Part shown: in pieces, positions 1 to 63,202 of the stretch | Layout: each line of letters begins with the position of its first letter | How positions within the stretch are numbered: the first letter of the stretch is position 1 | Source of the DNA: a virus | Direction: 5' to 3' (one strand) | DNA: 63,565 nucleotides | Virus record (IMG/VR): IMGVR_UViG_3300021478_000029 | Coordinates: 1-63,565 of that record | Notes under the pieces: generated by a model | What the model saw: the letters and a program-made list of their open reading frames with translations, nothing else | Databases searched by the model: none | What the model was told of the DNA's origin: nothing | Made by a program: the position numbers and the translations under genes

Positions 1-2
1 GC

Positions 3-290
3 AAATGTATCGCGCTGACACAACTCAAGGACGGGAATCCTGCCGCGACGATGGAAACGGCCAGGTGTCTCCGATGCGGTCCCTCTGCCGCAGCGGAGCG
101 CACTTACGATAATGTCCAGTTGCTATGCCGCCGATGCAATCGTCATAAGGGCGCCTCACGGATAGTCGGTCAGTTGCCGCTTTTCCCGAGGCCTACGCCG
201 GAGATCATCATTCGTGCGCGCTTGCCGCGCTCCCACCTCTGGCGGTCAGCCGCGGGTCCCGCGCTCCCCGTTAGCGCGTCGTCCGGTTGA
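3..290 (+). CDS. C-terminal part of an HNH-type protein, open at the window edge
   Basis: The reading frame is open from the first base, so the N-terminus lies outside the window or across the junction if the map is circular. Residues around positions 105-160 read DNVQLLCRRCNRHKG, the typical C-terminal half of an HNH endonuclease domain (Asn, then CxxC of the zinc knuckle). The expected DHxxP histidine core is not visible in this frame; a weak DAVPL-like trace sits in the -1 frame just upstream, so the gene may be frameshifted or degenerate. The tail after residue 55 has no recognisable domain. Confidence 0.4.
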   Translation, partial: KCIALTQLKDGNPAATMETARCLRCGPSAAAERTYDNVQLLCRRCNRHKGASRIVGQLPLFPRPTPEIIIRARLPRSHLWRSAAGPALPVSASSG

Positions 291-458
291 ACCGCCTTGG
301 TCAAACGGACTCCCGGAAAGATTGGCGCTCCGCCGCCGGGAGCTCACCTTGCAGGACGGGCAAACGGAGCCGCGGTCACGCGTGGCGAACGGCCGTGTGC
401 ACAGTGAGCAAGTGCGCTTGGTCATTCCCGGCGGAGGTGTCCAGTCATCGCCTTCCAT
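246..458 (-). CDS. Small zinc-ribbon protein (70 aa)
   Basis: Two cysteine knuckles (CSLC and CPSC) about 16 residues apart make a zinc ribbon; the C-terminal half is basic and low complexity. The start at 458 was chosen because GGGAG lies a suitable distance upstream. It ends the leftward block, 4 nt after the CxxCxxCC gene, and runs antisense over the end of the HNH fragment. Function unknown; nucleic-acid binding is possible. Confidence 0.5.
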   Translation of the reverse strand: MEGDDWTPPPGMTKRTCSLCTRPFATRDRGSVCPSCKVSSRRRSANLSGSPFDQGGSTGRRANGERGTRG

Positions 459-462
459 TGCG

Positions 463-1125
463 CTACGCTCCCGCTGATGCAGCGTGGTCAACCATCCCGC
501 CGACCACCGCCTCAATTTCCTCCGGGGAGTGTTCTTCCTCCCGCATCATGACCCGGTCATCAAACTCATGCCATGCGCCGTCCTCGCACAGTGGCGGCGC
601 GGCCAGGACGATGCCGGTCCGGTTGTCAAAGCGCACGAGTGCAGCGCACCGCCACCGCTCCGCCTGGCGCACGAGCCACGCGCGGAGCTCCGGGTCCCGG
701 TGCGCGTTCCGGTGCGCCGGGTCGCACCATATCTGGATCACGGGGACCTTGGCGGAGCTCCCGTCATCATTCTGCCGGACGATGAAATCCAAGGTCATGT
801 CGATCACGTAGTGGGAGCGGTCCGGGCGGCGGAGGCCCGCCGTTGTTTCGTCAATGAGCCACCGGCAGGCCCATGTGGCGCACGCGACGGGACGATCAGC
901 GTAGATCGAGCAACCCTTGCCGAAGCGGGCATACTGACACCGCTGGCCGGCGGCCTTGTTGAGCGGGACGGGGACGGGGACAAGCGTGCAACAGAGTGTG
1001 CACGTGCCGCACACTCGGCCGGAGGCCTCCCGGTTGAATGTGAGCTCCATGGAGCCGTCATCGTGCTCCACCATCTTCATGTGATCGCCGGCCAGTTCAT
1101 AATCCGGTGCTATGCGGGGCGGCAT
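463..1125 (-). CDS. CxxCxxCC cysteine-cluster protein (YkgJ-like)
   Basis: The 220-aa product has the signature C39-x2-C42-x2-C45-C46 followed by GCSIYADRPVAC, matching the zinc/iron-chelating CxxCxxCC family. Members are small metal-binding proteins of unknown role in bacteria and phages. The C-terminal half carries no second domain that I recognise. Its ATG overlaps the stop of the upstream 57-aa gene (ATGA), so translation is probably coupled. Confidence 0.65.
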   Translation of the reverse strand: MPPRIAPDYELAGDHMKMVEHDDGSMELTFNREASGRVCGTCTLCCTLVPVPVPLNKAAGQRCQYARFGKGCSIYADRPVACATWACRWLIDETTAGLRRPDRSHYVIDMTLDFIVRQNDDGSSAKVPVIQIWCDPAHRNAHRDPELRAWLVRQAERWRCAALVRFDNRTGIVLAAPPLCEDGAWHEFDDRVMMREEEHSPEEIEAVVGGMVDHAASAGA

Positions 1126-1298
1126 CAGGTGCGCCCTTCAATTTCCGCCAGGGTCCGCCGCGCCAGGTCACAGAGCGTTACCGTGGTCGCCTCCGTGGCG
1201 CCGGCCAGGGCCTCCCACGCGGCTCTATCCTCGGGGGACCATGGTCCGCCGCGGTGGAACAGTAAGACGGCCCGTGCAAGGCGCTCAGCCGGCGTCAT
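1125..1298 (-). CDS. Small hypothetical protein (57 aa)
   Basis: An uninterrupted frame starting MTPAERLARAVLLFHRGG with codon use like its neighbours. It lies tightly between two leftward genes, with its stop overlapping the next start (ATGA). It is predicted helical and acidic. No family recognised; support comes from packing and codon bias. Confidence 0.55.
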   Translation of the reverse strand: MTPAERLARAVLLFHRGGPWSPEDRAAWEALAGATEATTVTLCDLARRTLAEIEGRT

Positions 1299-1316
1299 GG
1301 TCCGGGCCGGTGTCGC

Positions 1317-1583
1317 TCATGCCGGCGGCCTCCCCGTCCCGAACCCCTGATACTCCCAACCCTCTTTGCGGAGCCGGCGCAGCAAGTAGGGGAATTGCGC
1401 GAGCAGGTTCAGCAGTGCGGCGGCCTCCCCGGGGACCGTGGTCGCGCCTTGTGCCCAACGCTCAACGCGTCGGCGGATCGTAAGCGGCTCCGCGGTGTCC
1501 CCAAGGTGTCCGAGCAGGCGCGCCAATGCCCCTTGTGACAGTTGCAGCGCGTCCAAGGTGCTGCGGAATTCGTCCGTTGTCAT
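1317..1583 (-). CDS. Small helix-turn-helix (XRE/antitoxin-like) protein
   Basis: The 88-aa product begins with a likely HTH: MTTDEFRSTLDALQLSQGAL, then ARLLG and a helix with RRVERWAQG, the usual recognition-helix spacing of XRE or antitoxin-type DNA-binding proteins. GGAGAG lies about 6 nt upstream of the ATG and the conserved leader hairpin lies immediately 5' of that. It may be a regulator in the early block; target unknown. Confidence 0.55.
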   Translation of the reverse strand: MTTDEFRSTLDALQLSQGALARLLGHLGDTAEPLTIRRRVERWAQGATTVPGEAAALLNLLAQFPYLLRRLRKEGWEYQGFGTGRPPA

Positions 1584-1602
1584 GGTTCTCTCCGGCGCTC
1601 CG

Positions 1603-1619
1603 CCGGCGCCAATCGCCGG
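1603..1619 (-). promoter_or_regulatory. Conserved leader hairpin, copy 1
   Basis: On the minus strand the sequence is CCGGCG-ATTGG-CGCCGG: a 6-bp stem and 5-nt loop, 19 nt before the ATG at 1583. There is no promoter palindrome here, so this copy sits inside the transcript. One of six copies at near-constant spacing from a start codon. Confidence 0.7.
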
Positions 1620-1635
1620 CGGTTCCGCTTTCAGT

Positions 1636-1971
1636 CTAGTGCAGATATTCCGCTAGACCCATCCGGGTGACGGCCTCGATGATGGGCGTGGAGCACATGC
1701 CGTCTATACCAATGAAATAGCCGGCTTGCTTCTGCCACTCACAGGCCTCCCGGACCGCGGTCACGAATTCCGCCGCATCAGCGCACTCCGTCACCACGAC
1801 ATCGCCCTCAGCGTATGAGCAAAGCCGGAGGGTGAGGGGATTGATCCAGTTGCCGTAATACCAAGCGTCTTGCTTGGTATCGAGTTGAGCCCAGCCGTCC
1901 CTGAAATGGCACAGCTTGAAGTCATAGCGGTATCGGTCGCCCATAGGCTCAAAGGCGCGCGTGACCTTCAC
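1636..1971 (-). CDS. Hypothetical phage protein (111 aa)
   Basis: The protein is rich in aromatic residues (RYRYDFKLCHF, DAWYYGNWINP) and contains a short acidic helix before a C-terminal segment. No signal peptide, membrane segment or known motif is seen. Its start overlaps the stop of the upstream gene by 4 nt, placing it as the second gene of the unit driven by the promoter at 2355-2383. Confidence 0.55.
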   Translation of the reverse strand: MKVTRAFEPMGDRYRYDFKLCHFRDGWAQLDTKQDAWYYGNWINPLTLRLCSYAEGDVVVTECADAAEFVTAVREACEWQKQAGYFIGIDGMCSTPIIEAVTRMGLAEYLH

Positions 1972-2306
1972 CGGCCGGCCCTCCGGTCCTGGCGGCGCAT
2001 GGAGCGCAGCACGAGGCTCGCCGCGGTTTCCGGTGACAGGTTGAGGCGCTTCTCATTCAACCAATCCGCCACGGCCCGCATGGTTGACTCGTCACCGAAT
2101 GCAAACCGTTCCGGTAGAGGATAGTGGCCGGTCACGCCTTCAATAACTATGGACAGGATATAAGCGCCGCGATCCATAGTGGCCGTGAAGCAAAAGGGCA
2201 CACGTCCGCGGCCGTTCATTTCGAGGACCCGGTTTTCCAGGGCAGTGCAGAGCTCGTCGGCCGGGAGGGCGGCAGGCTCAGCGTTGACGGGCAATTTGTC
2301 AGACAT
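1968..2306 (-). CDS. Hypothetical protein, first gene of the P1 unit (112 aa)
   Basis: Start at MSDKLPVN (2306), supported by GGAG about 8 nt upstream and by the leader hairpin ending 20 nt before it; a longer frame would run through the hairpin and promoter. The product is a soluble mixed alpha/beta protein with a C-terminal helix rich in Arg. No family recognised. Likely controlled both by the palindromic operator and by the hairpin. Confidence 0.6.
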   Translation of the reverse strand: MSDKLPVNAEPAALPADELCTALENRVLEMNGRGRVPFCFTATMDRGAYILSIVIEGVTGHYPLPERFAFGDESTMRAVADWLNEKRLNLSPETAASLVLRSMRRQDRRAGR

Positions 2307-2326
2307 TGGAGGCTCCACAAGTTCCA

Positions 2327-2343
2327 CCGGCGCCAATCGCCGG
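2327..2343 (-). promoter_or_regulatory. Conserved leader hairpin, copy 2
   Basis: CCGGCG-ATTGG-CGCCGG on the minus strand, ending 20 nt before the start at 2306 and lying just downstream of the promoter at 2355-2383, so it forms the 5' end of that transcript. Confidence 0.75.
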
Positions 2344-2354
2344 CGGCAGTGAGT

Positions 2355-2383
2355 ATAATACCAACATTTCATTGGTATGTCCA
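2355..2383 (-). promoter_or_regulatory. Sigma70-type promoter P1 with 21-bp palindromic operator
   Basis: Minus strand: -35 TGGACA, 17-bp spacer, -10 TATTAT. The palindrome at 2358-2378 (arms ATACCAA and TTGGTAT) overlaps both elements, so a bound dimer would block RNA polymerase. It drives 2306 leftward. Confidence 0.8.
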
Positions 2384-2419
2384 GTGAACTTGCGGCGCGC
2401 ATCAAACGGAGCTCCGCTT

Positions 2420-2608
2420 ATGGACCTGTTGCTGATTATCGTCGTGTTGTTCCTGCTATTCGGCGGAGGCGGGGGACTATACCGTTACGGGTCACGCGCC
2501 AGTTGGGGACCGTCATACTACGCCGGCGGCGGCCTGGGGCTGATCCTGCTGATCGTGTTGGTTGTGTTGCTGCTCGGTGGCGGCGGCCTTCCGCACTGGC
2601 GCTACTGA
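2420..2608 (+). CDS. DUF3309-like small membrane protein (62 aa)
   Basis: Two hydrophobic segments (residues about 2-14 and 39-53) flank a Gly/Tyr/Trp-rich linker, the pattern of the DUF3309 family of tiny alphaproteobacterial membrane proteins. The ATG at 2420 is preceded by GGAG at about 9 nt. It is transcribed against its neighbours and its 3' end overlaps the end of the convergent gene by 7 nt, which suggests a separately acquired host-type gene. Role unknown. Confidence 0.65.
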   Translation: MDLLLIIVVLFLLFGGGGGLYRYGSRASWGPSYYAGGGLGLILLIVLVVLLLGGGGLPHWRY

Positions 2609-3231
2609 CGCGTCAGGACCTCAAGCGGCTCCACCTGCAAGCCCATTTCCTTCAACTCTTCCAGGAGCGCTTGAGCCGCGCGCTTCTCGGCGTCAGTGGC
2701 CAGGCGGGCCGGCAGAATGTTGATGATTTCACCCTCGACCCTCCCGCCGTGTATTGAGACTTTCCGGAGGCCGGTAGGCATGCCGCTGGCGCGCCGCTCA
2801 ATCTCCCGCATGTCCTGGATTGTCCGCCGCTCGCCAGTGGCGTTATCACGCCAAGTCAACATGCACCATATGACCTCTTTTCGATCTGACGCCTTGCTTG
2901 GCGGGAGCTCCGTGGCGCGCCGTTTATGATCCGCGTCAGTCTCGCCGGGCAGTTGCCCCACATCACGAATCCACGCCTCACCGATTGAGCACAGTGCGAC
3001 CGCATCATGGATGACGCAGAGCAACCGGAGCACACGATAGAAGTTTTGCTTGTCATGCAGCATCAGTGCCGGGATCACAAGCGGCCCCTCCGCCCGGTGC
3101 AGTATGAACATCGGGAGGACCTGGCCTTTATCGAGCAAGATTTGCCGGGCAAATGTCACGTCGAATTCGACCTGCTCTTGCCAGCGCTCGGGCACGTTGG
3201 CGCCTCCCGCGCTCCGTGGCCGGACGGTCAT
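2602..3231 (-). CDS. Hypothetical protein (209 aa)
   Basis: A soluble, predicted alpha/beta protein. Visible segments include FDVTFARQILLDKGQV near the N-terminus and a C-terminal amphipathic helix (ATDAEKRAAQALLEELKEMG). The pattern resembles phage proteins of unknown function in early accessory blocks. The start overlaps the stop of the upstream CxxC protein by 4 nt. No catalytic motif recognised. Confidence 0.55.
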   Translation of the reverse strand: MTVRPRSAGGANVPERWQEQVEFDVTFARQILLDKGQVLPMFILHRAEGPLVIPALMLHDKQNFYRVLRLLCVIHDAVALCSIGEAWIRDVGQLPGETDADHKRRATELPPSKASDRKEVIWCMLTWRDNATGERRTIQDMREIERRASGMPTGLRKVSIHGGRVEGEIINILPARLATDAEKRAAQALLEELKEMGLQVEPLEVLTRQ

Positions 3232-3449
3232 AGCTCGTCCTCCGCGGCCGGTTCATACGCGTCATCGAATATCTCAACCGCCGGCATGCCCAACTCCGCA
3301 CGCTTCTCGTTGATCTTGTCCATGCAGGACCGGCACACCGGCTCCCGCGTCCCGGTGAACGCCGTCGTGCTCGGGACACGGACCGGATTGTAAGAAAACA
3401 CTTGATGGCACGTGATGCACGGACCCATGCAGAATACGAATCCCATCAC
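3228..3449 (-). CDS. CxxC zinc-finger-like small protein (73 aa)
   Basis: Cysteine pairs C-x2-C near residues 11-14 and CRSC near residues 39-42 suggest one zinc-binding site; the C-terminal third is acidic (YEPAAEDEL). Coupled by overlap to the downstream 209-aa gene. Function unknown. Confidence 0.55.
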   Translation of the reverse strand: MMGFVFCMGPCITCHQVFSYNPVRVPSTTAFTGTREPVCRSCMDKINEKRAELGMPAVEIFDDAYEPAAEDEL

Positions 3450-3469
3450 TAATCCTCCCGTTTGATGTT

Positions 3470-3706
3470 TCAGGGTAGCGCCTCCGCCTCCCGCCGGCGC
3501 CAGCTCGTGTAGTTTGCCACGTCAACCGCGAGTTGCCGGGCAAGCTGGTAAGGGCGGTAGAGCGCGTCCTGCTCTTCCCGCGGCTTGTCGAAGTCAACGC
3601 GTTGATCGTACTGCTTGAACAGGCGCCACGCGTCCTCAATACACTTGTCCGCGTGCCAGCCTGACCAGTTCTCCGGGTCCTTTGGAAGCCTGACCATAGC
3701 CGTCAC
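3470..3706 (-). CDS. Small hypothetical protein (78 aa)
   Basis: A helical, charged protein (MTAMVRLPKDPENWSGW...) with many Trp, Arg and Asp residues and no membrane segment. It overlaps the stop of the upstream gene by 4 nt, consistent with a translationally coupled cluster. No family recognised. Confidence 0.5.
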   Translation of the reverse strand: MTAMVRLPKDPENWSGWHADKCIEDAWRLFKQYDQRVDFDKPREEQDALYRPYQLARQLAVDVANYTSWRRREAEALP

Positions 3707-3924
3707 TCCGGCAGGCTGAGCGTGGCACTGTAGCGCCGCGCCAGGTCCTTCGCCGCCTTCACGGCCGCGGACTGCGATCGAAAAAACTGCTCGGACACCG
3801 TGCGGCCGAGTGCGTTGAAATCATCGTCCGGCAGGCCGAAACAACGGACCCGCCAGCCACGGCCGCTCCCGCGGTAGCCTCGCGGTTGCGTCCAATCAGT
3901 GACCGTCACTGTGTAGTGCATCAT
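3703..3924 (-). CDS. Small hypothetical protein (73 aa)
   Basis: The N-terminal half looks like beta strands (MMHYTVTVTDW, GWRVRCFGL), followed by one amphipathic helix (SQSAAVKAAKDLARRY). A similar strand-then-helix layout is seen in the 70-aa protein at 4681-4893, so the two may be distant paralogues. Overlaps its neighbours by 4 nt on both sides. Confidence 0.5.
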   Translation of the reverse strand: MMHYTVTVTDWTQPRGYRGSGRGWRVRCFGLPDDDFNALGRTVSEQFFRSQSAAVKAAKDLARRYSATLSLPE

Positions 3925-4082
3925 GACACGGCTTCCATCAGTTTTAACTCAGCGGACAACAGAGCAATGTGCTCACGGCTCAACGGCTCAACCGGAGCCG
4001 GCTTCCACGGGCCGCGGGTCAGTGAAAGCAACGCGTCAATTTCCGCGTCCGTCAACGGGATTAGTTTTGTATCACGCATCAT
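3921..4082 (-). CDS. Small hypothetical protein (53 aa)
   Basis: The frame reads MMRDTKLIPLTDAEIDALLS and onward; a strong GGAGG lies just upstream of the tandem ATGs and its stop overlaps the next start (ATGA). Helical and acidic; no family recognised. Confidence 0.6.
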   Translation of the reverse strand: MMRDTKLIPLTDAEIDALLSLTRGPWKPAPVEPLSREHIALLSAELKLMEAVS

Positions 4083-4093
4083 CTTGCCCTCCG

Positions 4094-4282
4094 TCAGCTA
4101 TCCGCTTGGGCGCGGTAGTAATCACGCATCAACCGCAAGGTTTCCAAGGCTTGCGTGATATTGCCGATCTCCACGTGTGCGACCAGCAGACCCAACGTTG
4201 TCGCTAGCATCATTTCGAGATGGCGGCGCGTGCGTTGTATTTCGACCAAAAGGCGGCCGATCTCTTCATTGAGTTCCATCAC
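4094..4282 (-). CDS. Small coiled-coil-like protein (62 aa)
   Basis: Nearly all helix: MMELNEEIGRLLVEIQRTRR has heptad-like hydrophobic spacing, followed by a second amphipathic helix. Start overlaps the stop of the gene upstream. No family recognised. Confidence 0.5.
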   Translation of the reverse strand: MMELNEEIGRLLVEIQRTRRHLEMMLATTLGLLVAHVEIGNITQALETLRLMRDYYRAQADS

Positions 4283-4620
4283 CGCTTCCCGCTCATGAGG
4301 TAGGTCATGCCATACGGGCCGCAGCCTGACAGTGGCTCAGCGTTGTGGAGGTTGCCGCGCGGATGGCGTGCCGGCGTCTTCCAACCGTCCGACTTCAGCA
4401 GGTTGCCGGTGGCGATCTCGATGAAGCCATAAGCGTATCGGCTTGATGGATTGTCCTCCACGACGATCCGGGAGTAGCGCGCGCCAGGCATTATCAGCAC
4501 GCGCGGAGGCGCGCCGACATTCCGGTTGGTAGTGTGATGCGCGGCCAGCATTGCCTCAAGGGCGGCGCGGAAGGCTTCGATTTCCGCCGCCGTCACTGGC
4601 GGGATAGAGCTCTGTGTCAT
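4279..4620 (-). CDS. Hypothetical protein (113 aa)
   Basis: Start MTQSSIPP at 4620 is set by GAGG upstream and by the leader hairpin ending 20 nt before it. An N-terminal helix (AAEIEAFRAALEAMLAAHH) is followed by a strand-rich region containing RYAYGFIEIATGNLL. The latter resembles small phage proteins that begin with a similar strand pattern, but I cannot name the family. Confidence 0.55.
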   Translation of the reverse strand: MTQSSIPPVTAAEIEAFRAALEAMLAAHHTTNRNVGAPPRVLIMPGARYSRIVVEDNPSSRYAYGFIEIATGNLLKSDGWKTPARHPRGNLHNAEPLSGCGPYGMTYLMSGKR

Positions 4621-4640
4621 GGGGAAATCCTCAAATCCCG

Positions 4641-4657
4641 CCGGCGCCAATCGCCGG
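4641..4657 (-). promoter_or_regulatory. Conserved leader hairpin, copy 3
   Basis: CCGGCG-ATTGG-CGCCGG on the minus strand, ending 20 nt before the ATG at 4620. No palindromic promoter is adjacent, so this copy is internal to the P2 transcript; this argues that the hairpin acts independently of transcription start. Confidence 0.75.
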
Positions 4658-4680
4658 CGGCAGGCACGGCACGGCACGGG

Positions 4681-4893
4681 TCAGGTCAGGACCCGGACCA
4701 CCACGCAGCCGTTGAAACCCTTGGGCGCCATCTGCTTGATCGTCCGCCGCATCCAAGCCTTCGCAGCGCTATAGGTGCTTGAGGGAGCCCAAATCGGATC
4801 AGAGCCATCAAAGGAGAAGGCCCAACCGCCATAACCGCGAGGCTCGCGGCTGTGGGTCCAAACGTAGGTGACTGTGTCAAATTCAAAGGTCAT
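4681..4893 (-). CDS. Small hypothetical protein (70 aa)
   Basis: First gene after promoter P2. Strand-rich N-terminus (MTFEFDTVTYVW) then a helix (SAAKAWMRRTIKQMAP) and a final strand. Layout similar to the product of 3703-3924. Preceded by the leader hairpin variant with a 6-nt loop. Confidence 0.55.
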   Translation of the reverse strand: MTFEFDTVTYVWTHSREPRGYGGWAFSFDGSDPIWAPSSTYSAAKAWMRRTIKQMAPKGFNGCVVVRVLT

Positions 4894-4914
4894 GGGGAAG
4901 GGTCCTCAATGCCA

Positions 4915-4932
4915 CCGGCGCCTATTCGCCGG
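4915..4932 (-). promoter_or_regulatory. Conserved leader hairpin, copy 4 (6-nt loop variant)
   Basis: Stem CCGGCG/CGCCGG retained with loop AATAGG on the minus strand; ends 21 nt before the ATG at 4893. Stem conservation despite loop change supports an RNA structure. Confidence 0.7.
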
Positions 4933-4942
4933 CAACAATTGG

Positions 4943-4971
4943 AATATACCAACATAACGTTGGTATGTCCA
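4943..4971 (-). promoter_or_regulatory. Promoter P2 with palindromic operator
   Basis: Minus strand: -35 TGGACA, 17-bp spacer, -10 TATATT; operator 4946-4966 with 8-bp arms ATACCAAC/GTTGGTAT. Drives the 4893-and-leftward genes. Confidence 0.8.
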
Positions 4972-4991
4972 GCGCAATCATCCAGCCTCTC

Positions 4992-5351
4992 TCAAATCAT
5001 GCCGAAAATCAGCAGCCAGGACGGAGCTCCGTCCGGACCCGTGCCGTCCGGTTCGACACGGTCGCCGGTGGGAGTTTCACAGACGCCGTCACTGACCCAT
5101 TCTTCCAGGCACGCCATGGAAGGAAGGCACTTCACGTCGCGGCGCCACGCCGGCAGTGATTCAACAAACGCAACTTTGCGCGCGCGCCACTCCGCCAACG
5201 TAAGCTCAGCCTTCTTGTGGCCAAACAGTTTCCAGGTCCGGTCATAGACGGACTTGCAAAGCACAACGCCGTCCTCGCGCGCGCTCAGCAAACGGCCGCC
5301 CTTGCCGATGTAACGGGCAAACTCGGGACCGTGGGCAGATAGTTTGGCCAT
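4992..5351 (-). CDS. Hypothetical protein (119 aa), first gene of the P3 unit
   Basis: Start MAKLSAHGPEFARYIGKGGR at 5351 chosen from its position 21 nt after the leader hairpin; the longer frame would be translated through hairpin and promoter. The sequence has a central basic segment (FGHKKAELTLAEWRARK) and an acidic C-terminal half. No family recognised. Likely under the same operator control as the divergent rightward operon. Confidence 0.6.
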   Translation of the reverse strand: MAKLSAHGPEFARYIGKGGRLLSAREDGVVLCKSVYDRTWKLFGHKKAELTLAEWRARKVAFVESLPAWRRDVKCLPSMACLEEWVSDGVCETPTGDRVEPDGTGPDGAPSWLLIFGMI

Positions 5352-5372
5352 GGAAGGCACTCCCTCAAGCCA

Positions 5373-5389
5373 CCGGCGCCAATCGCCGG
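5373..5389 (-). promoter_or_regulatory. Conserved leader hairpin, copy 5
   Basis: CCGGCG-ATTGG-CGCCGG on the minus strand, 21 nt before the start at 5351 and directly downstream of promoter P3. Confidence 0.75.
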
Positions 5390-5400
5390 CGGACAAATGA

Positions 5401-5429
5401 AACATACCAACATTCCATTGGTATTGCCA
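5401..5429 (-). promoter_or_regulatory. Promoter P3 with palindromic operator
   Basis: Minus strand: -35 TGGCAA, 17-bp spacer, -10 TATGTT; operator 5404-5424 (ATACCAA/TTGGTAT arms). It faces left, back to back with P4, making 5401-5506 a divergent control region. Confidence 0.75.
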
Positions 5430-5477
5430 GTTTAATCGCTATGCATCGGCGGAGTGTCCAGCGTGCGCTGATAACGC

Positions 5478-5506
5478 ATGACATACCAACTGAATGTTGG
5501 TATAGT
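5478..5506 (+). promoter_or_regulatory. Promoter P4 with palindromic operator (rightward)
   Basis: -35 ATGACA, 17-bp spacer, -10 TATAGT; operator 5483-5503 with 8-bp arms. The only plus-strand member. A transcript would start near 5513 and reach the AAGGAGA ribosome site before the ATG at 5533; no leader hairpin is present here. Confidence 0.8.
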
Positions 5507-5532
5507 GTTTCCTGTAAGAAGGAGACACGCAC

Positions 5533-5745
5533 ATGACCACCGAAACCAAGTTGACCTGGCGCCGCGCATCAAAAAACAACGGCTTCTATGCCAAGGGTCC
5601 CGACGGTGAGTTCCACGTCTATCGCGCCGAGAAGGGGCGCCGCGCACATGAGGCCACGTTGAATGGTGAGGTCATCGGCAAGTGGAACGACGCCGCTGAC
5701 GCCATGGCGGACATTGAGCGCAGCCTCCGCGTGGAGGCCGAGTAA
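5533..5745 (+). CDS. Small hypothetical protein, first gene of the modification operon (70 aa)
   Basis: Strong AAGGAGA ribosome site. The sequence is strand-rich and charged (LTWRRASKNNGFYAKGPDGE, then GKWNDAADAMADIERSL). No family recognised. The stop overlaps the start of the next gene by 1 nt, so it is the promoter-proximal gene of a tightly packed operon of five further genes. Confidence 0.6.
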   Translation: MTTETKLTWRRASKNNGFYAKGPDGEFHVYRAEKGRRAHEATLNGEVIGKWNDAADAMADIERSLRVEAE

Positions 5746-6134
5746 TGGCCTCCCGCCGCACCTGGATTGACGTTTGCGCGCACTGCGGCCGGACCGCTGA
5801 TACCAACGTCCCGCCGATCCCTCCGGAAACCGCCTGGGGCGGCGTCTGCATGGCGTGCAACGCCAAGCACGGATTGAGCGAGGCCTATACCGCCTGGCGC
5901 ACCGCGTGGATCGCCACCGCAAAGGCGGAGTCCCGGGCCAAGGGTGAGGCCGTTTGGCAGGCCAAGGGGATCAAGGTCGGGGAGCGCGTGCGCGTGTGGG
6001 GCCGGTCATTGCTCGGCGCGTTCCCGATCACCGGCATTGCCCGCGTCGGCGCCTCCGGCGCCTATGTCCAAGCGAAAGGGTATGGCCGCCTTGACCCGCG
6101 CGGCGCTCAGCGCGTGGAGGACCCGCAAGCGTGA
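5745..6134 (+). CDS. Zinc-ribbon protein with C-terminal beta domain (129 aa)
   Basis: CAHC at residues about 11-14 and CMAC near 35-38 form an N-terminal zinc ribbon; a helix follows (YTAWRTAWIATAKAES), then a strand-rich region (GIKVGERVRVWGRSLLG) reminiscent of an SH3-like barrel. Could bind DNA or act as an accessory to the enzymes downstream. Overlaps both neighbours by a few bases. Confidence 0.5.
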   Translation: MASRRTWIDVCAHCGRTADTNVPPIPPETAWGGVCMACNAKHGLSEAYTAWRTAWIATAKAESRAKGEAVWQAKGIKVGERVRVWGRSLLGAFPITGIARVGASGAYVQAKGYGRLDPRGAQRVEDPQA

Positions 6135-6844
6135 ATGATGCGATAGTCGAAATTCAAAACCCGCCCGTCGCCGCGGCGCTCGTGGCCAGCGGCTTTGATG
6201 GCATCGCACCACGCTATGACAGCGTGTTTCATTCGCGTCGTTGCTGCGCCGAGGACCGGCTCTTGGCCGCCAGGCTCCGCCCGTTCCTTCGCGGCTCCAT
6301 GGGCCAGCTCTTGGATGTCGGTTGCGGCACTGGCGCACTATTGCGCCTGGTCACGTGGCCGGTGTGGCGATACTCCGGCATTGACGTGTCAGCCGGCATG
6401 CTGGCGGAGGCCTCGCGACAGTATCCGGGCGCCGAGTTCTTTCGGGCCTCCGTGGAGGCCATGCCGTTCGGTGATGAACAGTTTGAGCGAGTAATCTCGA
6501 TCTTCTCCGCGCTCTCCTACGTCTCCGGACCTGCAAGGGCAGTCCGCGAGATTTATCGTGTTCTGCGGCCTGGCGGCCGGTGCCTCGTGATGGTTTATGC
6601 GCCGCGGTGGTATCGCCGCAACGCAGACTGTGCCGGTGACCTGCATGTGCACCTGGCGCCGGCCGCGTGGAGCGCATGGCAAGCCATCACGAGGTTCCGT
6701 GTGGCCGGCTTTGATCCGGGCTCCATCCGCCTGTCAGCGTTCTCGATCCTGCCGACGCCTCTGCTGTGCTTTGACGGCTTGCTAGCGCGACGGTTCCCGG
6801 AGGCCGGTCGCTATCTCATCATTGAGGCCGCGCGTCCGGCATGA
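6131..6844 (+). CDS. Class I SAM-dependent methyltransferase (Methyltransf_11 type)
   Basis: Motif I LLDVGCGTG at residues about 60-68 binds S-adenosylmethionine; SGIDVSAGML gives the acidic residue at the end of strand beta-2, and AMPFGDEQFERVI plus LRPGGRCLVMVY are the usual post-motif regions. The family methylates small molecules, proteins or RNA rather than DNA bases directly. The GTG start overlaps the upstream stop (GTGA). Lying in one operon with a PP-loop protein, a DNA methyltransferase and ParB, it may act in a DNA-modification pathway; substrate not predictable. Confidence 0.75.
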   Translation: MNDAIVEIQNPPVAAALVASGFDGIAPRYDSVFHSRRCCAEDRLLAARLRPFLRGSMGQLLDVGCGTGALLRLVTWPVWRYSGIDVSAGMLAEASRQYPGAEFFRASVEAMPFGDEQFERVISIFSALSYVSGPARAVREIYRVLRPGGRCLVMVYAPRWYRRNADCAGDLHVHLAPAAWSAWQAITRFRVAGFDPGSIRLSAFSILPTPLLCFDGLLARRFPEAGRYLIIEAARPA

Positions 6845-8004
6845 CTAAGTCGCGGTCACGGACCGGGCTTGATGTGTTTGAGCAAGCCTTGCAGCGGCTC
6901 CATGAGCTCTACGCTGGCGGGCACACCGTGGTCGTGGCGTTCTCCGCCGGCAAGGACTCCGGAGTGTGCCTTGAGCTCGCCATCATGGCGGCCAGGATGA
7001 CCAATCGGCTCCCGGTGCACGTCTCGATGCGTGATGAAGAGGTCATGCTCCCGGGGACGTTTGAATATGCGGAGCGGGTCGCCGCGCGGCCCGAGGTTGA
7101 TTTCCGGTGGTGCGTGGCCAACCAACCGATTGTCAACGTATTCAACCGGCGCGCGCCGTATTGGTGGGTGTTTGACCCGGAGCTCCGCCCGGACCAATGG
7201 GTGCGTCAACCGCCGGAGTGTGCGACCCGGATTGACGCTCTCGACATCACGCGGATTATCACGCGGCAGACGTATCCTACGGCGCCAGGTAAAGACATTT
7301 ACGCGGTCATTGGTATCCGCGCGAGTGAAAGTCAAAACCGGCGCTACAGCGTGTTCGCCGCCGGCGGGCACCTGACCAAGCCGAACGCCATGGGGACCCG
7401 GAATTGCCGGCCGATCTATGACTGGCAGGACGCGGACGTGTGGCGCGCGGTCCGTGACAACAAGTGGGATTTTAATCAGGCCTACAATACCATGATCCGG
7501 TTCAACATCCCTCTGTCGAAAATGCGGATCGCACCGCCCACGCTCAACTCCGCTTCCGTGTATCTGTTGGAGATGGCGCGGAAGGCCTGGCCGCGATGGT
7601 TTGATAAGGTGGAGGACCGGCTCCCCGGCGTCAAAACCATATCGCAGTTCGGCGCGCGCGCCGTCATGCCGCACCGGCGCATTGATGAAACCTGGCATGA
7701 CACCTTCATGCGGGAGTGCATCACGGAGGCGCCGGCGCCGTGGATCGCGGAGCGCTCAACGAACGTCATGCGCGCGCTGCTATCACTCCACGGCCAACAC
7801 TCGACGGCACCGTTCCCGGACGTGAAGCCTTGCTATATGTGCGTCGGCAACATGGGCGCCTGGCGCTCGCTGGCGATGGCGCTTTACAACGGGGACCCGT
7901 TCGCACTGAAGACGCAAGGGATCGGCGGCAACCGCGCGATGGAACCGGAGTTCTTCCGCCACGGCGCGGGCAGTTGGGGCGGTCACTCACCGACCTGGTC
8001 ATGA
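6841..8004 (+). CDS. PAPS reductase / DndC-like PP-loop protein
   Basis: FSAGKDSG at residues 34-41 is the PP-loop that binds ATP or the adenylyl-sulfate moiety, and the 387-aa length fits phage PAPS-reductase-family proteins. Downstream signatures include GIRASESQNR and a CRPIYDWQDADVW segment typical of the family, with a late CYMCVGN pair. True PAPS reductases feed sulfur assimilation; DndC members act in DNA phosphorothioation, but the partner genes dndB/D/E are absent. Phage versions beside DNA methyltransferase and ParB genes are of unresolved function. Start overlaps the upstream stop (ATGA). Confidence 0.75.
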   Translation: MTKSRSRTGLDVFEQALQRLHELYAGGHTVVVAFSAGKDSGVCLELAIMAARMTNRLPVHVSMRDEEVMLPGTFEYAERVAARPEVDFRWCVANQPIVNVFNRRAPYWWVFDPELRPDQWVRQPPECATRIDALDITRIITRQTYPTAPGKDIYAVIGIRASESQNRRYSVFAAGGHLTKPNAMGTRNCRPIYDWQDADVWRAVRDNKWDFNQAYNTMIRFNIPLSKMRIAPPTLNSASVYLLEMARKAWPRWFDKVEDRLPGVKTISQFGARAVMPHRRIDETWHDTFMRECITEAPAPWIAERSTNVMRALLSLHGQHSTAPFPDVKPCYMCVGNMGAWRSLAMALYNGDPFALKTQGIGGNRAMEPEFFRHGAGSWGGHSPTWS

Positions 8005-8672
8005 ATTGGCATTACGCCTCCACCGGAGGCCTCAACTATCCGGTTCAACCTGGCGAAGTGTGGCGTGCTGATCACCACGTGATCGCATGCGGGGATTTGG
8101 AGGCCGGGGATGGGCTCCGGCTCATTGACCGGTTCGGAGCTCCGGACCTGGTCTATTCCGACCCGCCATGGAATGACGGCAACGCCGGCGCGTTCCGATC
8201 GAAAGCCGGGATACCGCGTAAGGTGAACTTCACCGAATTCCTGGATCAGTTGCTCACCGTGGTTCGGATGGCGCGCCGTGACGTGTTCCTGGAAATGGGG
8301 ATCGCCAACACGCCGCATCTGATGGACCTGGCGGAGCTCCACGGCGGGGAGGTCGTCCGGCGCTGGCCGATCACCTATTACCGGCGGCATCCCTGCATGC
8401 TTCTGCATCTGCGCTGGCAGGGTCCGGCCGCAGACGTGGACGGGCTCGCCGGGATGGATGACGAGGATACGCCAGGGGCAGCGCTCAAGGCCTGCATGCG
8501 GCCCGGCGACGTCGTAATGGACCCTTGCACCGGCCGTGGCCTGACCGCCTTCACGGTGGCTACGGCGGGCCGCACGTTCCATGGGCTTGAGCTCTCGCCG
8601 TGGCGCATGTCGTGCACGCTGACGCGCCTGGCGGCGGCAGGTTGCACCATCGAGCGTGAAGGACCCTTGTAG
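8001..8672 (+). CDS. DNA methyltransferase, beta-class, DPPW motif
   Basis: Catalytic motif IV DPPW at residues about 53-56 comes first and the SAM-binding region (DPCTGRGLTAFT, about residues 173-184) near the C-terminus, the order of beta-class N4-cytosine or N6-adenine methyltransferases. At 223 aa it is compact, with a small target-recognition region. The start at 8001 overlaps the upstream stop by 4 nt; longer in-frame starts would run deep into the PP-loop gene. No cognate restriction enzyme is adjacent, so it is probably an orphan modification or anti-restriction enzyme. Confidence 0.8.
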   Translation: MNWHYASTGGLNYPVQPGEVWRADHHVIACGDLEAGDGLRLIDRFGAPDLVYSDPPWNDGNAGAFRSKAGIPRKVNFTEFLDQLLTVVRMARRDVFLEMGIANTPHLMDLAELHGGEVVRRWPITYYRRHPCMLLHLRWQGPAADVDGLAGMDDEDTPGAALKACMRPGDVVMDPCTGRGLTAFTVATAGRTFHGLELSPWRMSCTLTRLAAAGCTIEREGPL

Positions 8673-9479
8673 ATGGCGAAACGCGCCGGAAAGAAAACTC
8701 CGCCGATCAAAACCAACGTGGCACTGGAAACGCTGGTCATCGAGTATGTGCCAATCGAGTCAGTGAAGCCGAACGAATACAATCCCAACCGGATGTCAGA
8801 GAAGGACTTTGAGCTTCTGCTGCGCTCCATGCGGGAGGACGGTTTCACGCAACCCGTCATCGTGCAACGCGAGACGCGGGTCATTGTTGACGGGGAGCAC
8901 CGCTGGCGCGCCGCGGCGCATCTCGGCATGACGACGCTCCCGGTCGTGCTGGTGAGCATGTCCCCGGAGCAAGCGCGGATCGCCACGCTCCGTCACAATC
9001 GAGCTCGTGGCGCCGAGGACCTGCAACTCTCCGCGGAGGTCCTCCGGGACCTGGAAAAGCTCGGCGCGCTTGAGTGGGCCGCGGACAGTCTGATGCTCAG
9101 TGACGCGGAGATTGAAAAGCTACTCGCAGACGTGCCGGCTCCGGACGCGCTGGCCGGCGCTGAATACTCAACGGCATGGGCGCCCGGGGAACGGCCAGAG
9201 GACGCGGAAATCACGGACCGCGCCACCGACACGAACGGCTCCGGGATTGTCCAGACATCCGCCGCGTCAGTGAATGCGCTTGAGGTGCAGCGGCGCCAGG
9301 AAGCGGCAATGGCGACGGCACGCACGGAGGAAGAGCGGGAGCTCGCCCGGAAGGATGGCACGTTCTACCGCATCAACCTGATGTTCGCAGATGATGAGGC
9401 GAAGGTTATCAAAACGGTGCTCGGGGACCGGCCCGCGGAGCGCCTGTTGCAAATCTGCCGGGATCTCGTGCCGGCTTAG
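8673..9479 (+). CDS. ParB/sulfiredoxin-domain protein
   Basis: The N-terminal domain has the ParB core: PIESVKPNEYNPNRM, QPVIVQ and DGEHRWRAA at about residues 74-82. The middle and C-terminus lack an obvious ParB HTH. No parA is near, so chromosome-type partition is unlikely. Phage members of this fold include nucleases and ATP-dependent kinase-like enzymes in DNA hypermodification, usually next to methyltransferases as here. It starts one base after the methyltransferase stop. Confidence 0.75.
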   Translation: MAKRAGKKTPPIKTNVALETLVIEYVPIESVKPNEYNPNRMSEKDFELLLRSMREDGFTQPVIVQRETRVIVDGEHRWRAAAHLGMTTLPVVLVSMSPEQARIATLRHNRARGAEDLQLSAEVLRDLEKLGALEWAADSLMLSDAEIEKLLADVPAPDALAGAEYSTAWAPGERPEDAEITDRATDTNGSGIVQTSAASVNALEVQRRQEAAMATARTEEERELARKDGTFYRINLMFADDEAKVIKTVLGDRPAERLLQICRDLVPA

Positions 9480-9485
9480 TGCAAC

Positions 9486-9647
9486 ATGGTGCGTTCACTA
9501 TTTTCTCACGACAACCGCCTTATGGTAGGCGGAACTTGGTTTGGGATGGCCATAATGCACACGCTTGAAGGCCGCTTTCTCTATGGCGCCATTACCTTTG
9601 GGGTGGCCATGGTGATTCTGCCTTACGCGCCGACCAATCGCACCTAG
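9486..9647 (+). CDS. Putative small membrane protein (53 aa)
   Basis: The frame MVRSLFSHDNRLMVGGTW continues with a hydrophobic C-terminal segment (ITFGVAMVILPYAP). No clear ribosome site is seen. It fits the gap between ParB and the convergent gene, whose stop it overlaps by 4 nt. Low support beyond an open frame with a membrane segment. Confidence 0.35.
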   Translation: MVRSLFSHDNRLMVGGTWFGMAIMHTLEGRFLYGAITFGVAMVILPYAPTNRT

Positions 9648-9979
9648 GCCGCAGCGTCGCCGCCCTCGGGCTTTGCGAAGTCCTCCGGCTTTACCGGGAT
9701 GTCCCGGTTGATGATTTTGCTGATCGCGAGATTGGTCGTCATGGCCCAATACTTGAAGCCGTCGCCGAGCTCCAAATACTTGTTCTTCCGGCCGCGAAAG
9801 GTGCCGGTGTAGCCGTGCTGATGGATGGCATGGAACAGGCGGACATAGACCGCCTCAATCTCCGGGCTCCGCATGATATACCAATGGGGAACCTCCGGCA
9901 TGGTCTTAGCGAATCGGAACGGGAGGCCTTTGACGGCCTCCCGCAGCTCAACGATTTCCGGTAGCTCTGCTATTTCCAA
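9644..9979 (-). CDS. Conserved-looking phage protein (111 aa), TTG start
   Basis: Motifs PHWYIMR, HGYTGTFRG and GFKYWAMTT with INRD near the end resemble a recurring but unnamed phage family with a WY...YW...INR pattern. The TTG at 9979 is preferred because GGAGG lies 7 nt upstream; it overlaps the end of the next gene upstream by 10 nt. Soluble, alpha/beta. Function unknown. Confidence 0.55.
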   Translation of the reverse strand: MEIAELPEIVELREAVKGLPFRFAKTMPEVPHWYIMRSPEIEAVYVRLFHAIHQHGYTGTFRGRKNKYLELGDGFKYWAMTTNLAISKIINRDIPVKPEDFAKPEGGDAAA

Positions 9980-10833
9980 GGCGGCGCCTCCAATCCGGTT
10001 GTGGTCACGCAAACCTCACCGTTCGCGCTGTTACCGCGGAGTTCTATCATACCGCGGCGGCGGAGTGCACCGGTCAAACCGGGCAACTGACCTTTGGCCA
10101 GGTTGTGCGGCGTGTTGCTATCGTGGATGGCCTTGTATTTGACCCAAACGCCGGCCCGCTCTTTGAGCGGCTTGTCCGTCAGTGCCTTGCAGTCAATCAG
10201 CGCCATCAACAGGCGATCTTGCTCGGGCGTGAGGCCTTGAGCGGCGCCAGCTAATGACACGGGCTTTGACGCCGGAGCCGGCGTGGCGGGCGCCTCACTC
10301 GGGCGCTTTAGGCCAACGATGCCAAGAAAAGGACCGGTTGAGTTCGCCGGAGCGGGAGCGGCCAGGTGGCCGAGGCGGGTCCGGGCACGCTTGGCAACCT
10401 TGGCCGCCTCGCGCTCTAGCCGGGCCTGGCGGAGCTCCTTCACCGAGTCCTTGGCAATCTTGGCCGCGGCCTTTTCCGGATCACCCTCAACGGTCCGGAT
10501 CGGACCATGCAGTGACCGGAGCTCCACGATGTTCCCGCTCACCGCGTCAATGGCCGTGGGGACAAACGCCGCGGCGCGGACTTCTACGACTGCGCCATGG
10601 CGCTCAACGCCATCCGCTACCGCCTTCTTGAGCGCCGCCAGCGGTACATTCACCGGGACCGCGAGGCCTGCTCGCGCCATGGCAACCGGCGCCGTGACGT
10701 TCATGCGGTCAAGCTCCGCAATAGTCAGCGCCAGGGCGCGCGCATGGGATTCAAACTTGCGGACCGGCTTCTCGCGGTCCGTCACCGCGTTGAACACTTT
10801 GACCAGTTGCGCGGCAGAGAGTTTGTCAAGCAT
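9970..10833 (-). CDS. Hypothetical DNA-binding-like protein (287 aa)
   Basis: The N-terminal segment (SAAQLVKVFNAVTDREKPVR) matches a short phage/bacterial N-terminal module that precedes DNA-binding regions in other proteins. The middle is basic and helical (KELRQARLEREAAKVAKRAR), followed by a Pro/Ala linker and a C-terminal region resembling a winged helix (GLTGALRRRGMIELRGN). A role in replication, packaging or regulation is possible but unproven. Start at 10833 is set by AGGAG and by the leader hairpin 23 nt upstream. Confidence 0.55.
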   Translation of the reverse strand: MLDKLSAAQLVKVFNAVTDREKPVRKFESHARALALTIAELDRMNVTAPVAMARAGLAVPVNVPLAALKKAVADGVERHGAVVEVRAAAFVPTAIDAVSGNIVELRSLHGPIRTVEGDPEKAAAKIAKDSVKELRQARLEREAAKVAKRARTRLGHLAAPAPANSTGPFLGIVGLKRPSEAPATPAPASKPVSLAGAAQGLTPEQDRLLMALIDCKALTDKPLKERAGVWVKYKAIHDSNTPHNLAKGQLPGLTGALRRRGMIELRGNSANGEVCVTTTGLEAPPWK

Positions 10834-10856
10834 CGGATAGCTCCTAAACGCGTCAT

Positions 10857-10872
10857 CGGCGCCAATCGCCGG
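10857..10872 (-). promoter_or_regulatory. Conserved leader hairpin, copy 6
   Basis: CCGGCG-ATTGG-CGCCG on the minus strand (5-bp stem; last pair lost), 23 nt before the start at 10833 and downstream of promoter P5. Confidence 0.7.
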
Positions 10873-10881
10873 CAACACCCC

Positions 10882-10909
10882 CTTATACCAACGTTCCGTT
10901 GGTATTCAT
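10882..10909 (-). promoter_or_regulatory. Promoter P5 with palindromic operator
   Basis: Minus strand: -35 ATGAAT, 17-bp spacer, -10 TATAAG; operator 10885-10905 with perfect 8-bp arms ATACCAAC/GTTGGTAT. Confidence 0.75.
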
Positions 10910-11003
10910 ACATCAATCGTTAATCATGCCATGCGACTGACGCTTTTATGTGCGGCACTCACTGCATGGCACCGATCCACGCGGCAATGAAGCGGTGCAA
11001 CAA

Positions 11004-52337: not shown

Positions 52338-52630
52338 TTACCGGCACATATTGCCGTCATGCTGAGGCGTGTGATTGCTGGCGTCGGAAGCGGAACCGGA
52401 TTGGTCAACGTCTGACGCTGATTGTGTATCCGGAGCCTGGTCTGTCACTTCCCGGAGTTCCGGATGGGCCGCCAGCAGAGCGGTCAGGAGTTTGGGCTCA
52501 ATACTGTCCGCCAGGCTCCCAAGATACAGAAAATCCAGGGAAATCCCGAAGCGAAGCGCGGTTTCAATCCCGATCCGTACGGGGACCGGGTCAGTCCCGT
52601 CCTCATACCGCTGCCATTGATCCGGCGTGA
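52289..52630 (+). CDS. Possible antisense protein over the repressor 3' end (113 aa)
   Basis: AAGGAAGG lies 4-5 nt before the ATG, unusually strong for a shadow frame. Residues 1-30 precede the overlap; most of the frame is antisense to the repressor and is Pro/Arg/Ser-rich. It may be spurious. Confidence 0.2.
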   Translation: MAQARALNASEASAESLTGTYCRHAEACDCWRRKRNRIGQRLTLIVYPEPGLSLPGVPDGPPAERSGVWAQYCPPGSQDTENPGKSRSEARFQSRSVRGPGQSRPHTAAIDPA

Positions 52631-53006
52631 CCTGCATCACGTGGGCAATCCGCTCAATCGACGGCTCCAATAGTCTCCGGGTCCATCGCAGACGCATCCC
52701 GGGCGTGATTTCCTCGTGACTGGGCGTGACCAGGTCCGCCACGCCGGCGGGGAGGCCGCAGATCAGGTAATCCAGGGAAATCCCGGTCAGCCGGCGCACC
52801 GCGGCCAGGACTTTCATCGGCGGCTCGATGCGTCCGTTGTCGTACCGGCGGTATGCGGCGGCCGTGATGTGGATACCAAGCGCGCGCACGAAATCCGCTT
52901 GAGAGAGCCCGGGCTTTCCCTGAGAAGCACCGTAAACAGCGCGCACCTGGCGCAGCCGGCGAGCAAACCCGCTCCGAAGTGACTCCGGCTTTGTGATGCG
53001 ACCCAT
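52338..53006 (-). CDS. Tandem-HTH phage repressor
   Basis: Starting at MGRITKPE, two XRE domains are visible. First: FARRLRQVRAVYG, GLSQADFVRALGIHITAAAY, RRYDNGRIEPP, and ISLDYLI. Second: PGMRLRWTRRLLEPSIERIA, TPDQWQRYEDGTD, and ISLDFLY. About 45 polar residues end the protein. No S24 peptidase region, so SOS-type self-cleavage is unlikely. It diverges from a Cro-like gene, the classic immunity layout. Confidence 0.8.
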   Translation of the reverse strand: MGRITKPESLRSGFARRLRQVRAVYGASQGKPGLSQADFVRALGIHITAAAYRRYDNGRIEPPMKVLAAVRRLTGISLDYLICGLPAGVADLVTPSHEEITPGMRLRWTRRLLEPSIERIAHVMQVTPDQWQRYEDGTDPVPVRIGIETALRFGISLDFLYLGSLADSIEPKLLTALLAAHPELREVTDQAPDTQSASDVDQSGSASDASNHTPQHDGNMCR

Positions 53007-53039
53007 GGCCGCAATGTATGGAACAGCCGGTAGCAATCC

Positions 53040-53075
53040 TGCAAGGGAGGCCGACTCGAAATCGTCCCTCTTGCA
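53040..53075. promoter_or_regulatory. Inverted repeat operator in the immunity region
   Basis: TGCAAGGGA (53040-53048) faces TCCCTCTTGCA (53065-53075), a 9-bp inverted repeat with one inserted base. It lies between the divergent repressor and Cro-like genes and touches the rightward -35. Confidence 0.55.
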
Positions 53076-53100
53076 TTGGCACGGTGAGTTTCAATACGAT
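53071..53100 (+). promoter_or_regulatory. Rightward early promoter
   Basis: -35 TTGCAT (53071-53076), 18-bp spacer, -10 TACGAT (53095-53100). Transcription would begin near 53107, one base before the ATG at 53108. Confidence 0.55.
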
Positions 53101-53107
53101 GGGCTCC

Positions 53108-53371
53108 ATGGACCGGGAAATCATCTATACGGTCCCGCTGAAGGAGATATTGGAACAGCGGGGAATATCCGGCGAACTCTTCGCCGTCGCGGCGGGCGTC
53201 ACAATGGCGTCCTATCGGGCCTACTGCCGCGGCGTCCGCCAGCCATCCCCGGAGACGGTCATCACCGTGGAGCGCTTGCTTAAAATCGAGCGGTATGAAT
53301 TGCGGCCGGACCTATGGCCGCCTCCCAAGGGCCAACGAACCAAGCGAACGGCTTGCCGTAAGGCCGCCTAG
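53108..53371 (+). CDS. Cro-like HTH regulator (87 aa)
   Basis: MDREIIYTVPLKEILEQRGI, then FAVAAGVTMASYRAYCRGVR and QPSPETVITVERLLKI form an XRE-type HTH of the Cro/YdaS kind. An upstream ATG at 53099 is possible, but the promoter position favours a nearly leaderless start at 53108. First gene of the rightward early operon. Confidence 0.7.
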   Translation: MDREIIYTVPLKEILEQRGISGELFAVAAGVTMASYRAYCRGVRQPSPETVITVERLLKIERYELRPDLWPPPKGQRTKRTACRKAA

Positions 53372-62887: not shown

Positions 62888-63202
62888 ATGCCTAACCGTC
62901 CGCCTCTGCACGCTCCACCGTGGGCCGCCACCGTGCGCCAGGTAGCAGCACGGGAGCGCAATCAGCGTCGCCTCCCGTCCAACGAACGCGGCTATGACTG
63001 GGCCTGGCGCAAGTTCCGGATCGGCTATCTGTCAGCGCATCCGTTGTGCATGGACTGTGCAGAGCAAGGCATCACACGGCCAGCCACGGAGCCGCATCAC
63101 ATCCTCAAGGTGGCGGATCATCCTGACCTACGAATGGTTGAGCGCAATCTACGTGCACTCTGTCATGACTGCCACGCTATACGCACGGGCAAGGGTGAGT
63201 GA
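62888..63202 (+). CDS. HNH endonuclease (104 aa)
   Basis: GYDWAWRKFRIGYLSAHPLC, CMDCAEQGITRPATEPHHIL and RNLRALCHDCHAIRTGKGE form a complete small HNH domain (His in HHI, zinc pairs CMDC and CHDC). Such HNH proteins commonly assist terminase cleavage and lie next to terminase genes; here the terminase is 11 kb from the other end, so on a circular map they are not neighbours. Confidence 0.8.
   Translation: MPNRPPLHAPPWAATVRQVAARERNQRRLPSNERGYDWAWRKFRIGYLSAHPLCMDCAEQGITRPATEPHHILKVADHPDLRMVERNLRALCHDCHAIRTGKGE

Follow-up and report, generated by a model that had tools for sequence, protein, structure and literature searches.

A conserved palindrome inside five predicted left-arm promoters of an IMG/VR phage, mostly followed by a leader hairpin

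The left arm (~0.5-10.8 kb) of the viral record IMGVR_UViG_3300021478_000029, analysed here as a window of 63,565 nt (W), consists of four leftward gene units, g5-g1, g14-g7, g15 and g24-g23, and one rightward unit, g16-g21. Each of these five units is headed by one copy of a 21-bp palindrome, ATACCAAC-N5-GTTGGTAT (Table 1). Three copies are perfect and two, at 2358 and 5404, carry a single mismatch, with ATTGG replacing GTTGG in the plus orientation. All five were found exactly where a first-pass annotation of this DNA had placed them. Allowing up to three mismatches over the 63.6 kb, the mean of shuffled sequences was 0.03 copies against the five observed, and no further match exists in the whole window. 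The five palindromes lie entirely outside the gene calls, and the non-coding share of the window is ~11%. A de novo scan for recurring palindromes with 7-bp arms returned this operator family and a GC-rich hairpin, along with sub-frames of both. The designation of the regulon as phage-wide was too strong: between 11 and 63.5 kb there is not one copy at the same threshold, and this part includes the CI/Cro-like switch at ~53 kb. "Left-arm regulon" is the accurate name.

At every one of the five sites the palindrome forms the 17-bp spacer of a predicted promoter, four of them pointing leftward and one rightward, each towards the next gene. This arrangement agrees with the first-pass annotation, which had also listed -35 and -10 boxes for all five. 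The boxes differ in quality: the -35 is weak at 5404 (TGGCAA, 3/6 consensus matches) and 10885 (TATGAA, 2/6), and 10885 has TATAAG as its -10. An independent sigma70 scan of positions 1-11000 ranked precisely 5483, 4946 and 2358 on top (promoters at 5478, 4971 and 2383), each with 10/12 matches, a 17-bp spacer and a TG preceding the -10. This extended -10 (TGgTAT), a feature within the palindrome that had previously been overlooked, is supplied by the right arm GTTGGTAT and is retained at 5404 and 10885, where its presence would account for the weakness of the -35 boxes.

Table 1. Operators, leader hairpins and candidate regulatory genes in the window
Feature	Position	Strand	Boxes or sequence	Context
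Operator 1	2358..2378	-	1 mismatch; -35 TGGACA 2383-2378; -10 TATTAT 2360-2355	Heads unit g5-g4-g3-g2-g1
Operator 2	4946..4966	-	Perfect; -35 TGGACA 4971-4966; -10 TATATT 4948-4943	Heads leftward unit g14 to g7
Operator 3	5404..5424	-	1 mismatch; weak -35 TGGCAA 5429-5424; extended -10 TATGTT 5406-5401	Before g15
Operator 4	5483..5503	+	Perfect; -35 ATGACA 5478-5483; -10 TATAGT 5501-5506	Before g16-g21; without leader hairpin
Operator 5	10885..10905	-	Perfect; poor -35 TATGAA 10910-10905; extended -10 TATAAG 10887-10882	Before g24-g23
Leader hairpin	2327..2343	-	CCGGCGATTGGCGCCGG	After operator 1
Leader hairpin	4915..4932	-	CCGGCGAATAGGCGCCGG	After operator 2
Leader hairpin	5373..5389	-	CCGGCGATTGGCGCCGG	After operator 3
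Leader hairpin	10856..10872	-	CCGGCGATTGGCGCCGA	After operator 5
Hairpin without operator	4641..4657	-		Between g14 and g13, directly upstream of g13 start
Hairpin without operator	1603..1619	-		Directly upstream of g3 start; also in phage C
Rightward unit under operator 4	5533..9479	+		Two small genes, S-adenosylmethionine (SAM) methyltransferase, PAPS-reductase-like, DNA-methylase-like, ParB-like
g24	9970..10833	-		C-terminal winged-helix protein (predicted); opens the operator-5 unit in all four phages; leading regulator candidate, would be autoregulated
g3	1317..1583	-		Small XRE/HigA-like protein inside operator-1 unit; second candidate
g90	52338..53006	-		Tandem helix-turn-helix (HTH), CI-like; faces g91 (53099-53371); control region without palindrome; disfavoured

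Scanning IMG/VR for the exact palindrome yielded 16 stretches, four of them in three contigs with multiple copies and 12 with a single copy and no leader hairpin. The multi-copy contigs, here called phages A (L006), B (G002) and C (G003), are pieces of genomes from one phage group with W; they encode terminases 83-97% identical to that of W and share part of its gene order. They contribute four, six and four sites, respectively, which together with the five of W gives 19 sites, 14 of them outside the window. In terminase relatives at 55-68% identity, both the palindrome and the left arm are absent, and no close relative was matched among sequenced phages, the best terminase reaching 42%.

The 19 sites are partly related by descent and do not represent 19 independent events. 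For the eight promoter positions that the palindrome does not cover, their match to the consensus was 5.0/8 in the direction of the gene; read the opposite way it was 1.05, and the background gave 1.81. Not one of 20,000 random draws reached the observed level, and for W alone the corresponding value was 1e-4. Among spacer lengths, 17 bp fitted best, with 4.16/6 matches in the -35 box versus at most 2.16 for any other length. Within the 16 sites that are linked to a hairpin, the spacer is variable and the 16 arm positions are invariant with one exception, position 8 of the upstream arm, which reads C at 13 sites and T at three. By arithmetic on the sequence, the half-site centres are ~11 bp, or one helical turn, apart, which suits a dimer.

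The leader hairpin is the second half of the cassette and was missing from the first-pass annotation. At 16 of the 19 sites, a hairpin of the form CCGGCGA-N1-3-GG[C/U]GCCG[G/A] starts 11-13 nt after the palindrome and is followed by a ribosome-binding site and the start codon. It accompanies every leftward site in the four phages and is absent from all three rightward promoters, W5483, B6660 and C15916. The predicted folds range from -11 to -23 kcal/mol, and the stem would begin 0-4 nt into the transcript if transcription starts ~7 nt past the -10. The stem core is fixed and the loop comprises 4, 5 or 6 nt, a combination more in keeping with an RNA hairpin than with a dimer site in DNA; we therefore disfavour the idea that the hairpin is a second DNA operator. 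Compensatory changes in the stem did not exceed those in shuffles, the stem core hardly varying, and some hairpin copies lie inside operons. No Rfam family matched the window at the gathering score. Hairpins also occur without an operator, upstream of g3 in W and C, upstream of g13 in W, and in the distant phage D (G389, IMGVR_UViG_3300034170_000105; L173-L175), which has three copies of the same hairpin (22329, 23044 and 23454, minus strand) and none of the palindrome. The two elements are thus separable. Upstream of one of the hairpins in phage D we noticed ACCAACATTC followed by a -10-like TATGTA box, possibly a relic half-site. In an unrelated phage (L166, IMGVR_UViG_3300034198_006164), a leader hairpin, CCGGCGATGGGCGCCGG, is located at 10639 between a TATAGT box, which it follows directly, and a start codon.

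The position of the sites is conserved at g24, at g5, and, in W, B and C, at a divergent pair 79-80 bp apart; in phage A the cassettes are reordered, yet the sites are kept. Non-homologous genes can stand behind an equivalent site, namely g15 in W and the A14/B15/C22 family in A, B and C, so that the cassette looks as if it travels with, or precedes, different genes. The small A14/B15/C22 protein was rejected as the common regulator because W keeps the sites and has no homolog of it. A conserved protein of 71 amino acids following the operator in A, B and C (L142 6314-6529, L006 8880-9095, L145 5666-5881) is possibly a winged helix; in W the unrelated g15 takes its place.

Judging from these sequence patterns, a single dimeric repressor encoded by the phage probably silences the left-arm promoters sterically through the palindrome. 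The dispersed copies would constitute the operator of this protein, whose dimer, bound to one face of the DNA, would cover the spacer between -35 and -10 and block RNA polymerase. The accessory operons that run leftward would then be silenced, and later released, together with the rightward methyltransferase/PAPS-reductase/ParB operon. Leftward transcripts would begin a few nucleotides before the stable hairpin that precedes the ribosome-binding site, and the hairpin would probably shield the 5' end and insulate translation. A functional analogy with 5'-terminal stabilising RNA hairpins of the ompA type is conceivable; here, the stem would lie 0-4 nt from the predicted start. The central element of the earlier interpretation, one conserved operator in several promoters, which the leftward units of the left arm share with the rightward unit starting at 5483, was supported and is kept in three relatives.

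As the source of such a repressor we tentatively put g24 first, on the basis of gene position and a predicted fold. It adjoins an operator in 4/4 phages and would repress its own promoter at operator 5. Its C-terminal 85 residues are predicted with fair confidence to form a winged helix, with predicted local distance difference test (pLDDT) scores of 67-86 by 10-residue block, and Foldseek matched TubR/MarR/ArsR-type proteins with a probability up to 1.0 and an E value of only 0.03; g24 is probably the protein previously described as PadR-like. A g24-like protein of phage D, D41, has N-terminal and middle stretches in common with g24 and a different C-terminal sequence. The combination of a missing palindrome, a retained g3 and a changed D41 C terminus in this phage favours g24. 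Several points weigh against the proposal as a whole or against g24: the poor -35 boxes at 5404 and 10885; the g24 model, which is weak beyond the C terminus (mean pLDDT 53); and the g24/D41 comparison, a single pair whose score is weak (E 0.002 in a database of 217 proteins). In addition, the regulator may be a right-arm gene, as the contigs of A, B and C exclude the right arms.

The best of the other explanations, in our estimate still rather unlikely, is that the repressor is g3, a small protein with a HigA-like HTH that would regulate itself from the operator-1 unit. Small antitoxin-type HTH proteins commonly autorepress via palindromes, and g3 lies inside a unit of the operator-1 type in W, B and C, the contig of A ending too early for this comparison; its HTH character is indicated by matches to phrog_14076 (E 0.007) and the HigA-2 antitoxin (E 0.01). 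However, phage D lacks the palindrome yet retains g3 (54% identity), the TIRxRVERWA helix region being nearly unchanged, and 21 bp is long for the dimer of a small XRE protein. Unlikelier again is a regulator encoded by some other phage gene.

We consider it improbable that a host transcription factor binds the palindrome and that the phage thereby taps a host signal. The motif search over related phages and the host that had been proposed earlier was productive in its first part, with the 14 further copies in phages A, B and C; in its second part it revealed no host regulon in sampled Alphaproteobacteria. Only 2 of the 385 sampled genomes of this class, that of an Acidiphilium metagenome-assembled genome with the host group being a guess, contain the palindrome, in one copy each. 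The composite of palindrome and hairpin was absent from GTDB genome contigs, where 23 pattern matches had no closed hairpin; a host regulon is not supported in either of these two sets. The 12 single matches in viral contigs are about at chance level for 16 fixed bases. Nearly all of 100 viral matches to a loose combined pattern were other sequences without the palindrome.

Equally improbable is that the palindrome is an activator site, or merely the symmetric sequence of an extended -10 promoter. Such a role would accord with the TGgTAT provided by the right arm and with the weakness of several -35 boxes. The left arm ATACCAA, however, has no part in the extended -10 and is dispensable for sigma70, yet it is invariant in 16/16 hairpin-linked sites, and this conservation gives the clearest indication that a protein binds there. 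A spacer of 17 bp is already optimal for a promoter and needs no untwisting, so an activator of the MerR type, whose site is a palindrome in an over-long spacer of 19-20 bp, is less likely; the 17-bp optimum over the 19 sites does not match such a site.

The least probable explanation makes the palindrome part of a lysogeny switch under g90 or g91: these are the clearest regulators in the window and L5-type immunity repressors do act on dispersed sites (PMC5712189), but their control region and the entire right arm lack the palindrome at up to three mismatches, a different imperfect inverted repeat, TGCAAGGGA...TCCCTCTTGCA, is found by inspection in that region, and the genes scanned showed no integrase. 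Of the regulators nominated in the first-pass annotation, the tandem-HTH protein has accordingly become less likely, and g24 and g3 are retained. The inverted repeat between g90 and the Cro-like g91 (53007-53098) is likely a separate operator.

Operators of the TetR, LexA and lambda type are dyads between or over the -35 and -10 of sigma70 promoters and repress by occlusion; the site described here resembles them in placement. On testable features, the system appears to belong to the broad class of dispersed-operator phage regulons, with repressor binding as a presumed property: near-identical sites occur beyond chance (five in W, 4-6 per relative), they lie at predicted promoters and at the starts of transcription units, and they are conserved in the three relatives defined by their terminases. 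Among the closest known systems are the cluster A mycobacteriophages L5 and D29, whose repressor gp71 is associated with many dispersed intergenic operator/stoperator sites (PMC5712189); for phiC31 and L5, 18-30 sites are given (PMC4557955). The 24 sites of L5 are asymmetric, 13 bp long, oriented with transcription and act downstream of promoters, whereas here a 21-bp palindrome sits inside each promoter and in one arm only, unlike stoperators. In mycobacteriophage BPs, gp33 acts at five dispersed regulatory regions, several of them promoters, with palindrome-based sites (PMC4557955); the full BPs operator consists of two 12-bp elements at variable spacing, in contrast to the single palindrome of fixed spacing with a leader hairpin. 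SPBRE of phage SPbeta is also a repeated promoter-region element; it was found in silico, and a single repressor, MrpR, was afterwards shown to bind it (PMC10516654). However, SPBRE is a 15-bp motif, and MrpR has the fold of a tyrosine recombinase, a kind of protein that was not identified here. The start-associated sequences (SAS and the extended ESAS) of cluster K mycobacteriophages combine a conserved leader element with an upstream inverted repeat before a subset of gene starts, are shared by relatives and have no known function (PMC3203893). ESAS has imperfect 17-bp arms with a spacer of 4-13 bp, whereas in the present phages the promoter spacer consists of the palindrome, with the hairpin as a separate element; the sequences are unrelated, and the cluster K 13-mer GGGATAGGAGCCC near the start codon is absent from the leaders read here, which show GGA..CC contexts. 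The hairpin-coupled cassette is unusual among dispersed-operator phage regulons, and in a non-exhaustive search of the literature we found no description of an operator-in-promoter and 5' hairpin cassette of this sequence.

Some further observations concern the surroundings of these elements. A recurrent sequence, GATTGATGT, lies upstream of some operator sites, and a CATGCACTGA-like motif was seen ~60 nt upstream of several operators (window ~10965; L142 ~5110 and ~12715; L144 ~10330). In the rightward unit, the consecutive genes g19 (PAPS-reductase-like), g20 (DNA-methylase-like) and g21 (ParB-like) span 6841-9479. Phage genes related to this region are annotated as IbrB or as co-activator of prophage gene expression, so that "modification operon" is not its sole reading. 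The right arm contains an MT-A70 type methyltransferase (55070-56098, E 2e-19), a second methylation system besides those of the left arm. HNH-like sequence was found at both record ends, at 1-290 (CxxC...CRRCNRHKG) and at 62888-63202 (g108); the record may have been cut within or near an HNH gene.

If the proposed repressor exists, the five left-arm units, including the methyltransferase/PAPS-reductase/ParB operon, would be tied to one switch in a lineage for which no cultured member was found, and the search for the regulator is narrowed to two or three genes. A more far-reaching idea, which we regard as possible but doubtful, is that operator, extended -10 promoter, 5' hairpin and ribosome-binding site make up a portable cassette that this phage lineage places before incoming genes, with a swappable C-terminal, DNA-binding half of g24 setting the identity of the operator. 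If so, new accessory genes would come under a single repressor and a single RNA-level control together, and the cassette would show how phages bring accessory genes that they have recently acquired under control that already exists.

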